Source of the DNA: Rhodanobacter sp.
Lineage (GTDB): Bacteria > Pseudomonadota > Gammaproteobacteria > Xanthomonadales > Rhodanobacteraceae
DNA: 64,000 nt
Assembly: GCA_040371205.1 (NCBI GenBank)
Contig: AP031382.1
Coordinates: 2,229,562 to 2,293,561 of the forward strand
Direction: 5' to 3'
Below the pieces are notes generated by a model. The model saw only the letters and a list, made by a program, of their open reading frames with translations. It was not told where the DNA came from and made no database searches. Below, piece by piece: positions 34,776-38,453 of this stretch (its first letter is position 1; every line of letters begins with the position of its first letter). The translations under genes and the position numbers were made by a program.

Positions 34776-37700
34776 TCACATGTTGCGCCGGTATTCCCCG
34801 CCCACGTCATACAACGCATGACTGATCTGCCCCAGCGAGTGTGTCTTCACCGCCTCCATCAGCGCGTTGAACACGTTGCGGCGCTCGCGGGCGGTGTTCT
34901 GCAGGTAGGCCAGGCCGTGCCCATGTCCTTCGACTCCGCTCGCCTGCGGCGAGCTACGCTCAGGACGAACGGATGCATCTTCATCCGTGGAATCGGTGCC
35001 ATGCGCATGTGAGGTCTCGCCTGCCGGCGCCAGCGCATTGCGCGCCTTCTGGAACGCCTGCACGTTAGCGATCTGCTGGCCCTTCTCTTCTTCCGTCGAG
35101 CGGATCAACTCGATCTCGGTGGCGATCTCGCCGCCGTGGTCCCTGGGCAGGAAGGTGTTGACGCCGATCAGCGGCAGGCTGCCGTCGTGCTTCTTGTGCT
35201 CGTAGTAGAGGCTCTCTTCCTGGATCTTGCCGCGCTGGTACATGGTGTCCATGGCGCCGAGCACGCCGCCGCGCTCGCTGATGGCCTCGAACTCCTTGTA
35301 GACGGCCTCTTCCACCAGGTCGGTGAGTTCTTCGACGATGTAGCTGCCCTGCCAGGGGTTCTCGTTGAAGTTGAGGCCCAACTCCTTGTTGATGATCATC
35401 TGGATGGCCACGGCGCGGCGCACGCTTTCTTCGGTGGGCGTGGTGATGGCTTCGTCGTAGGCGTTGGTGTGCAGGCTGTTGCAGTTGTCGAACAACGCGT
35501 ACAGCGCCTGCAGCGTGGTGCGGATGTCATTGAACTGGATCTCCTGCGCGTGCAGGGAGCGGCCACTCGTCTGGATGTGGTACTTCATCATCTGGCTGCG
35601 CGGGCTGGCGCCGTAGCGCTCGCGCATGGCGCGGGCCCAGATGCGGCGGGCGACGCGGCCGATCACGGTGTATTCCGGGTCCATGCCGTTGGAGAAGAAG
35701 AACGACAGGTTGGGCGCGAAGTCGTCGATCTTCATGCCGCGCGCGAGGTAGTACTCAACGATGGTGAAGCCGTTCGACAGGGTGAAGGCGAGCTGGCTGA
35801 TCGGGTTCGCACCGGCTTCGGCAATGTGATAGCCGGAGATCGACACCGAGTAGAAGTTGCGCACCTTGTGGTCGACGAAGTACTGCTGGATGTCGCCCAT
35901 CATGCGCAGGGCGAATTCGGTGGAGAAGATGCAGGTGTTCTGCGCCTGGTCTTCCTTGAGGATGTCGGCCTGCACGGTGCCGCGCACGCTGCTGAGCGTC
36001 TCGGCCTTGATGCGGGCGTAGGTCTCCGCGTCCACCAACTGGTCGCCGGTGACGCCGAGCAGGCCGAGGCCGAGACCTTCGTTGCCCTTGGGCAGCTCGC
36101 CGGAGTACTGCGGGCGGCCGTGTGGGAACATGGCGGTGATCTGCTTTTCCGCCGCGGCCCAGCGCGCGGGATCGGCCTTGAGGTACTTCTCCACGTTCTG
36201 GTCGATCGCGGTGTTCATGAACATCGCGAGGATGATGGGCGCGGGGCCGTTGATGGTCATGGAGACCGAGCTGGTTGGCGCGGACAGGTCGAAGCCGGAG
36301 TACAGCTTCTTCATGTCGTCCAGCGTGGCGATGTTGACGCCGGAGTTGCCGATCTTGCCGTAGATGTCGGGGCGCGGCGCCGGGTCTTCGCCGTACAGCG
36401 TCACCGAGTCGAACGCGGTGGAGAGGCGCGTGGCCGCACCGCCCTGGCTCAGGTAATGGAAGCGGCGGTTGGTGCGCTCGGGCGTGCCCTCGCCCGCGAA
36501 CATGCGGGTGGGGTCCTCGCCGCTGCGGCGGTAGGGGTACACACCGCCGGTGTAGGGGTAGTGGCCGGGCAGGTTTTCCTTGCCGAGGAACAGCAGCTGG
36601 TCGCCCCAGCTCTCGGTCTTGGGCGGCGCCACTTTCGGGATCTTCTGGTGGCTCAGGGATTCACGGTAGTTCTCCACGCGGATGGTCTTGTCGCGCACCT
36701 TGTATTCGTTGACGTCCTTGGTCACCGATTCGCGCAGCGTGGGCCAGTCGCGCAGCAGGTGGATGGACTCGTGGCTGAGCTCCTTGAGCGCGGCGTTGTA
36801 GCGCTGGCGGAGCAGCAGCAGGGTGCGGTCGACGACGTGGGGCGCTTCGACTTCGCCCGCCTTTGGCGAGCTACGCTCAGCGTGAACGGCTTCTTGGGCA
36901 TCCGCGCCCTCCCCCGTTCGTCCTGAGCGTAGGTGCGCAGCACCGGAGTCGAAGGACCCGTGCAAATCGTCGCTGTGATACAGCTCCAGCGGCTTGGGCA
37001 GCTTGTCGTCGGCCAGCTCCTTCAGCGATTCATAGTAGTGCTGCGCCTTGCTGGCGGCTTCCGACTGGTGCGCGATGGAGGCATTGATGCCGCGCCCCTG
37101 CTCCGCGATCTCGGCGAGGTAGCGCACGCGGCTGCCGGGGATCAGCACGGTGGCGCGCGGCTCCTTCAGCGTGGTGTCGATCTGCGGCGTCCACTTGTCC
37201 GCGGGCAGGTGCAGCTTGTCGCGCATCAGCCGGCACAGGTTGGCGAACATCCAGGTGACGCCGGGGTCGTTGAACTGGCTGGCGATGGAGGGATACACCG
37301 GCACGTCCTCGTCCTTGACGGCGAAGGCGGTGCGGTTGCGCTTCCACTGCTTGCGCACGTCGCGCAGGGCGTCTTCCGCGCCGCGCTTGTCGAACTTGTT
37401 GAGCACGACCAGTTCGGCGAAGTCGATCATGTCGATCTTCTCCAACTGGCTGGCCGCGCCGTAGTCGCTGGTCATCACGTAGACCGGGAAATCCACCAGA
37501 TCGACGATCTCGGAATCGCTCTGGCCGATGCCGGCGGTTTCCACGATCACCAGGTCGTAGGGCTGCGCCTTGAGGAAGTCGATGCAGTCGTGCAGCACCT
37601 CGTTGGTGGCGGCGTGCTGGCGACGGGTGGCCATGGAGCGCATGTAGACGCGGTGGCTGCGCAGCGCGTTCATGCGGATGCGGTCGCCCAGCAGCGCGCC

Positions 37701-38453
37701 GCCGGAGCGGCGGCGGGTGGGGTCGATGGCGAGCACGGCGATGCGCATCTGCGGGAAGGCGTGCAGGAAGCGCAGCAGCAGCTCGTCCACCACGGACGAC
37801 TTGCCCGCGCCGCCGGTGCCGGTGAGGCCGAGCACGGGCGTGGCCTTGCCGGCCAGCTTCCACTGCTTGCGCAGGTGGTCGAGGTCGGTGGCGGCGAGCT
37901 TGCCCTCTTCAATGGCGCTGAGCATGTGGCCGATGGAGATCTCGTCGTCCACGCTGACCTTGGAGGCGGCGGTGTCGGGCGCGCGCTGCGCGGCGGCGCG
38001 GCTGGCGCGCTGCATCACGTCCTCGATCATCTCGGTGAGGCCGAGCTTCATGCCGTCGTTGGGGTGGTAGATACGCTCCACACCGTAGGCCTGCAGCTCC
38101 TTGATCTCCTCCGGCGTGATGGTGCCGCCGCCGCCGCCGAACACGCGGATGTGCGCGGCGCCGCGCTCCTTCAGCATGTCCACCATGTACTTGAAGTACT
38201 CGACGTGGCCGCCCTGGTAGGACGACAGCGCGATGGCGTCGGCGTCTTCCTGCAGCGCGGCGCGCACCACGTCTTCCACCGAGCGGTTGTGGCCCAGGTG
38301 GATCACCTCGGCGCCCTGCGCCTGGATGATGCGGCGCATGATGTTGATCGCCGCGTCGTGGCCGTCGAACAGGCTGGCGGCAGTGACGAAACGCAGCGGG
38401 GTGGTCTCGGCCTGGGGGGCGCCGGCGGGGACGTGCTTGGCGGGGGAACTCAT
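34776..38453 (-). CDS. icmF: Fused isobutyryl-CoA mutase IcmF with in-frame repeat insertions
   Basis: Adenosylcobalamin enzyme that interconverts isobutyryl-CoA and n-butyryl-CoA, with its G-protein chaperone fused in; 1225 residues. Order: B12-binding domain with cobalt-ligand His32 (FDGHDAAIN); MeaB-like GTPase with Walker [10 protein letters not shown] (212-220) ; mutase barrel to the end. Substrate-selecting residues are those of IcmF, not methylmalonyl-CoA mutase: Phe652 in TRMFAGEG and Gln838 in [11 protein letters not shown], where methylmalonyl-CoA mutase has Tyr and Arg. Compared with IcmF as I know it, there are two extra Ser/Gly/Glu-rich stretches, both encoded by REP-like DNA: one in the linker before the mutase domain, one about 40 residues before the C-terminus. 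The reading frame stays open through both. Often annotated as methylmalonyl-CoA mutase. Confidence 0.93.
34926..34972 (-). repeat. REP-like GTAG-hairpin element, copy A, inside icmF
   Basis: Minus-strand sequence GTTCGTCCTGAGC, then GTAG, then stem CTCGCC-GCA-GGCGAG, then CGGAGTCGAAGGA. It is translated in the icmF frame as [16 protein letters not shown]. Same orientation and same frame as copy B. Confidence 0.8.
36845..36889 (-). repeat. REP-like GTAG-hairpin element, copy B, inside icmF
   Basis: Minus-strand sequence GTTCACGCTGAGC, GTAG, stem CTCGCC-AAA-GGCGGG (one U-G pair), then CGAAGTCGAAG. Translated in the icmF frame as [16 protein letters not shown]. Confidence 0.78.
36913..36957 (+). 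repeat. REP-like GTAG-hairpin element, copy C, inside icmF
   Basis: Plus-strand sequence CCGTTCGTCCTGAGC, GTAG, stem GGTGC-GCA-GCACC, then GGAGTCGAAGGA. It is inverted relative to copies A and B and only about 23 bases from copy B. On the minus strand it is translated in the icmF frame as [16 protein letters not shown]. Confidence 0.8.

Follow-up and report, generated by a model that had tools for sequence, protein, structure and literature searches.

The icmF gene and its REP-like elements

The window, the whole stretch of 64,000 nucleotides from Rhodanobacter sp. that was analysed, carries on its reverse strand the gene icmF (34776..38453, -), recognised from its open reading frame and Pfam matches, which encodes a fused isobutyryl-CoA mutase of 1225 residues with a B12-binding domain, a MeaB-type G domain and a mutase domain. 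The Pfam domains (MM_CoA_mutase, MeaB and B12-binding) lie in one uninterrupted ORF; the best solved relative of the protein is 4xc6, and the nearest named IcmF among the matches listed is that of Rhodanobacter lindaniclasticus. Alignment of 129 IcmF sequences (hereafter rows) showed three variable segments, referred to as site A (near residue 415), site B (residues 495-541) and site C (residues 1143-1182).

Site B holds an inverted pair of REP-like elements. Element 1 (36917..36957, +; 41 nt) is antisense to icmF and is read as 14 residues, element 2 (36842..36886, -; 45 nt) has the same sense as the gene and is read as 15 residues, and a spacer (36887..36916, no strand assigned) separates the two. 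An earlier note on this DNA had described two opposed hairpin elements inside icmF, together with their stems and peptides and an unbroken frame, and these points are confirmed: the single ORF with its domains remains open through the elements, that is, they are in-frame protein-coding (RPE-like) palindromes with an open frame in an otherwise intact protein. The insertion is likewise in frame as described. Between the same flanks the linker spans 45 residues here and 9 in genomes G002 and G003 and locus L065, so that about 36 residues have been added. A third copy in the same gene, absent from the earlier note, lies in frame in the C-terminal region (element 3; 34925..34969, -; 45 nt) and is read as 16 residues (about 1161-1176).

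The arms of the inverted pair are 19 nt long, with 84 % complementarity and a separation of 24 nt, and the folding of the pair beats all shuffles (z -4.2 as RNA and -3.9 as DNA; 0/200 each). Folded alone as DNA, three single elements are unremarkable (z -0.5 to -1.5), and the third copy together with four flanking bases gives a z of -2.75.

The solved IcmF of C. metallidurans aligns to the query up to residue 472 and resumes at residue 565, 34 residues replacing 92. A section of the paper on that structure describes a linker joining the G domain and the mutase domain, and site B probably falls within this linker. An AlphaFold model of residues 151-1225, which is weak throughout (mean pLDDT 60, pTM 0.40), represents residues 501-538 as coil (pLDDT 33-42) flanked by two helices, and the inserts at sites B and C both appear as low-confidence coil; as pLDDT is below 50 in 412 of the 1075 modelled residues, many of them within folded domains, such low values are not specific to the inserts.

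The repeat and its copies in the genomes

The consensus of the genome copies reads TTCGyCCTGAGCGTAG, followed by a variable stem-loop and rAGTCGAAGGrC. A genome search with the element, which the earlier note had proposed, did find further copies: with the pattern TTCGTCCTGAGCGTAG and up to two mismatches, 17 sites were obtained in the own genome (G000) and 68 in the relative G010, against 3 in each case for the reversed-pattern control. Across 15 genomes of the genus the number of sites ranges from 1 to 68, G010 having the most. Such unlinked copies, together with the short linker of G002, G003 and L065, identify the element as a dispersed mobile palindrome.

The outer arms of the repeat covary. 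A pattern fixing the conserved blocks was used to parse 57 distinct elements, and pairing of their 5-bp outer arms reaches 94.7 % of positions, compared with a mean of 82.6 % and a maximum of 86.7 % over 1000 shuffles in which the arms were redealt among the elements; GTCCT/AGGAC, GCGCT/AGCGC and GTGTT/AACAC are examples of covarying arms. The GTAG foot, regarded as a hallmark of REP sequences, holds in so far as an unpaired GTAG adjoins the stem in 46 of the 57 elements (GCAG in 8, GTCG in 2 and GTGG in 1). It is, however, internal and not terminal, because covarying arms lie beyond it; 12 nt sit on its 5' side, 5 of which covary with the 3' end of the element.

The placement of the copies was assessed with a heuristic coding test based on codon-position GC, applied to the first 30 of 67 listed sites in the own genome and 30 of 68 in G010. 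Three of the 20 elements checked in the own genome are in icmF, one is a chance coding hit (L195) and 16 lie outside coding-like frames, while among the 45 elements checked in G010 two are in icmF and two (L233 and L235) in short doubtful frames. icmF is therefore home to all convincing in-gene copies among the elements checked in the two genomes, and in a systematic 604-kb sample that includes the window, three of seven copies are coding, all three being the icmF copies. In the own genome, a fragment of a CCCTCTCCC-type repeat (L159, 8224-8244) also lies within a coding-like frame about 1490 codons long, which may be another gene containing a translated repeat.

The 68 sites of G010 include 21 inverted pairs of neighbours no more than 150 bp apart. 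In 19 of these 21 doublets the plus copy precedes the minus copy, at a distance of 63-125 bp; in icmF the order is reversed and the heads face each other.

Recurrence, turnover and reading frame at the linker

IcmF was sought in 61 genomes, 56 of which had a match and 49 of which were used; G015 (split ORF) and G007, G030, G042, G046, G051 and G052 (partial or unretrieved matches) were left out. The further 80 rows are named loci, the best 80 among the matches listed, and three pairs among the 129 rows are near identical. Site B is 36-58 residues long in 33 of the 129 rows and 4-6 residues long in the eight rows of the most distant clade of the midpoint-rooted tree. Recognised repeat families occur at this site in 34 of the 129 rows, a count based on peptide motifs composed after the inserts were seen and missing at least one copy elsewhere in the gene (L071, site C). 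The families at site B include the REP of the window, VIPAKAG (ATTCC..GGAAT), CCCTCTCCC..GGGAGAGGG and others; the families of added peptide are REP, VIPAKAG..LDSGLRRND, PSPSGRGTEGEG..PLSRGERG, VGAxxAA and others.

Independently of the family names, a folding z below -2 was obtained for 31 of the 44 long inserts at site B, as against 3 of 44 controls (median z -4.4 and +0.3, respectively; Wilcoxon p 4e-9), and the other 13 are no better than z = -2. Long inserts from the three sites have matches outside icmF in 22 of 85 cases and same-length icmF controls in 0 of 85 (B 16/44, A 6/33, C 0/8), in a pool of 1.47 Mb selected without regard to repeat content; as each named genome supplies at most about 14 kb, the figure is a minimum. 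An earlier result (32/85, controls 2/85) was discarded since its pool held loci that had been retrieved by the repeat itself. Only two of 52 repeat places outside icmF lie within coding-like frames.

Hits of the V family, summed over both strands so that some places are counted twice, number 238 in G023, 45 in G001, 42 in G013, 24 in G006, 7 in G012 and 1 in G000 (control 0). The S family, whose palindrome is counted once, gives 120 hits in G014, 79 in G021, 72 in G005, 67 in G010 and 17 in G000 (control 0 or 1), and the G family has 71 BLAST matches in G013, 76 in G010 and 0 in G000. These counts confirm that V, S and G are repeats of the genomes that carry them in icmF.

Two other kinds of site-B insert were observed. 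L069 has a 99-residue in-frame insert composed of several copies, whole or truncated, of the window's REP. A segment of about 50-57 residues, GERR..RRK, is found in L076, L085, L089, L092, L095 and L143 (Arenimonas, Dokdonella and relatives); it is mostly non-palindromic and apparently inherited. Considered at one stage as a repeat family, it was dropped because in five of its six rows folding does not go beyond z = -2 (L092 reaches -3.0) and because it looks inherited.

With GERR..RRK excluded, mapping of site B on a FastTree core tree, built with the variable sites removed, requires at least 26 presence changes and at least 32 state changes (28 and 35 over 40 rows when the segment is included), the exact number being uncertain because some genus nodes are weakly supported. 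The same turnover is seen among the genomes whose IcmF core DNA lies 5-7 % from the own gene: site B contains V in G013 and G001, half a V in G008, nothing in G003 and G002, and the same REP pair in G010. The alignment of homologues, also proposed in the earlier note, thus finds the pair to be absent from five of these close relatives and common to G010; as G010 is not the nearest row to the own gene on the tree, recombination or loss is needed as well. G013 has three different families, one at each of its three sites.

A function of the inserted segment has to be considered at this point. The palindromes might be kept as mRNA hairpins that slow the ribosome for co-translational folding, or their length might tune communication between the G domain and the mutase. 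The strong hairpins retained in 31 of the 44 long inserts and the concentration of convincing in-gene copies in icmF are consistent with such a role, as is the comparison of the own gene with that of G010, in which 2 of 90 positions are changed in the peptide-coding arms and 6 of 27 in a spacer stretch of 27 nt. However, the IcmF cores of the two genomes differ by 6.3 %, so the conservation of the arms is not clearly above the gene average; moreover, the IcmF frame is open in G002, G003 and L065 with their short linker and in G008 with half an element, and the most distant clade manages with its 4-6 residues. We regard a functional linker of this kind as unlikely. Much the same can be said of the idea that the linker is a dedicated landing segment, whose disordered, hairpin-encoding insert would be useful as an mRNA pause or a tunable chaperone-mutase spacer; it seems an improbable one. 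Nucleotide-level selection on the element arms was also considered separately, and the contrast between 2/90 and the core difference was not decisive.

Since searching by peptide motif is biased towards a single frame, the search for reading frames was redone on DNA. The 15 forward REP copies at sites B and C all share a phase; so, within their own groups, do all 8 V copies at site B and the reverse REP copies of all 5 rows previously known as carriers. A further reverse REP hit with one mismatch, in G041, has a different phase, perhaps by chance. The S family occurs at icmF in three phases (8 and 2 copies at B, 1 at C), and a single preferred frame is therefore limited to REP and V. Even with counts that are not all independent, some copies sharing descent, the single phase of these two families points to selection on the peptide. 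A ranking by disorder agrees with this: of 33 family-bearing rows in which several frames are open, 22 use the frame that most promotes disorder, with a mean normalised rank of 0.17 and 0 of 20000 random draws as low, in a test that assumes independent rows and uses hand-entered propensity values. Ranking of the used frame by hydropathy in the family-bearing rows gave no signal (p 0.17).

We favour, with a probability of roughly 70 %, a reading in which insertion of palindromes is filtered by selection for an in-frame, disordered linker peptide. The pair is a REP-like doublet that inserted into the segment connecting the G-protein and mutase parts of IcmF, and this linker, along with two other segments of the protein to a lesser degree, is a recurrent acceptor of several palindrome families in the Xanthomonadales (Lysobacterales). 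The elements probably land widely across the genome, without targeting, and copies within genes would survive almost only if they are in frame, free of stops and add a disordered, exposed peptide without disturbing a folded neighbour. The IcmF linker satisfies these conditions, and its elements are rapidly gained, lost and replaced; the passage is probably neutral, and the peptide presumably persists in the mature enzyme. That icmF holds every convincing in-gene copy among the elements checked in the two genomes is not accounted for by permissiveness alone.

The moving enzyme and comparison with known systems

The earlier note had read the elements as REP sequences of the type moved by RAYT transposases. 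The in-frame translation of a dispersed hairpin repeat into protein is upheld, but the link to a RAYT gene is not. A search with the Y1 transposase profile PF01797 gave nothing in the own genome or in G010, the genome richest in repeat sites of the 15. Across the genus there are 13 Y1_Tnp matches, distributed over 8 of the 15 genomes, and CTGAGCGTAG, with one mismatch allowed, is absent from the retrieved flanks of all 13, one of which is truncated at the end of a contig. Mobilisation as GTAG REPs or REPINs by a RAYT that has since been lost is a possibility, if a doubtful one, which concerns the mover and is compatible with insertion followed by selection. It would agree with the GTAG preceding the short stem in most elements, with the frequent doublets of G010 and with the loss of such transposase loci, which is mentioned in a part of PMC3733652, but it sits poorly with the internal position of the GTAG, with the lack of Y1_Tnp in the own genome and G010, and with the 13 Y1 matches of the genus, none of which adjoins the repeat. 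On the latter two grounds RAYT as the mover was left unproven.

A Y1_Tnp gene does lie about 2.7-5.5 kb from icmF in G001, G005, G006 and G009, the flanks of these genes carrying the terminal repeats GTGAACCTGACCCC or GGGGTCAGAGTGCACTTT, and the arms GGGGTCAGAGTCACTTT of the site-A inserts of G006 and G009 nearly match the repeat GGGGTCAGAGTGCACTTT of the nearby gene. A transposase might thus prefer the locus, for instance by local hopping from a Y1 gene a few kb downstream of icmF. We consider targeted insertion very unlikely, however, given that the own genome and G010 are devoid of PF01797 matches, that the REP, V and S sequences differ from the Y1 repeat, that insertion points vary within the linker, and that copies of the site-A type (the K type) are found on other contigs too. 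Local hopping from the icmF-near Y1 gene as the source of the REP was rejected, since the flanks of that gene carry a different terminal repeat.

The site-A inserts of G006 (L026, 3649-3759) and G009 (L029, 3664-3792) are miniature inverted repeats, and G009 has five further paired copies of this type. Genome counts of the K family (13 in G009, 5 in G006, control 0) are more modest than those of V, S and G, and the pattern was not found in the own genome. When seven Y1 loci were checked for inverted repeats, L145, L146, L147, L148 and L153 were found to be flanked by other terminal repeats, and L152 and L247 had no terminal repeats of that kind. In L145 (2371-3072 and 4405-4626) and L146 (2051-2895), icmF-near Y1 genes lie beside duplicated coding fragments and short direct repeats.

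Searches of the literature did not find IcmF in this role, the gene list in the supplement of PMC3733652 being outside their scope, and a text search of papers for the repeat strings gave none about such repeats by title among the matches listed. The portions of PMC3733652 (2013) concerned with intragenic REPs describe GTAG and CGTC REPs translated in frame within known proteins, propose flexible linkers and loops as tolerant places, and report that recB of X. campestris and X. oryzae bears different REPs at about one site; the word 'mutase' is absent from its main text, the list of affected genes being in its supplement. In-frame translated short palindromes and the idea of a tolerant linker are common to those cases, as so described, and to ours, whereas here a single metabolic enzyme has its linker occupied, across many genera, by several families, some without GTAG. 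The principle of in-frame palindromes is therefore known, and a multi-family hot spot in one enzyme appears to be new. The site-A inserts of G006 and G009, which are not of the window's family, resemble neighbouring Y1 terminal repeats and in this respect the TIRYT elements (TIRs of tyrosine transposases) treated in a part of the same paper, which also mentions Rickettsia palindromic elements (RPEs) inserted in frame in ORFs likely encoding functional proteins.

RPEs are like the present elements in being in-frame palindromes in ORFs and unlike them in the organisms concerned and, presumably, in sequence. They occur in many genes, while the elements here, in the two genomes checked and doubtful cases aside, are genic only at icmF. 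REPIN doublets associated with RAYT are inverted doublets of hairpin repeats with tens of copies per genome; ours are also inverted doublets in tens of copies, but in icmF the heads face each other, opposite to 19 of 21 doublets in G010, and no RAYT is linked to them.

Much of the variable linker sequence of IcmF in this group is translated repeat DNA, which is relevant to alignments and to studies of linkers. Palindromes becoming protein have been reported over many genes; IcmF is a replicated natural experiment within one enzyme, offering several families, many changes on the tree, close relatives with a short linker and a solved relative (4xc6), and it makes it possible to measure directly the rate of insertion, the filtering by frame and the tolerance of the linker, and to test whether such segments stay neutral or acquire a role.
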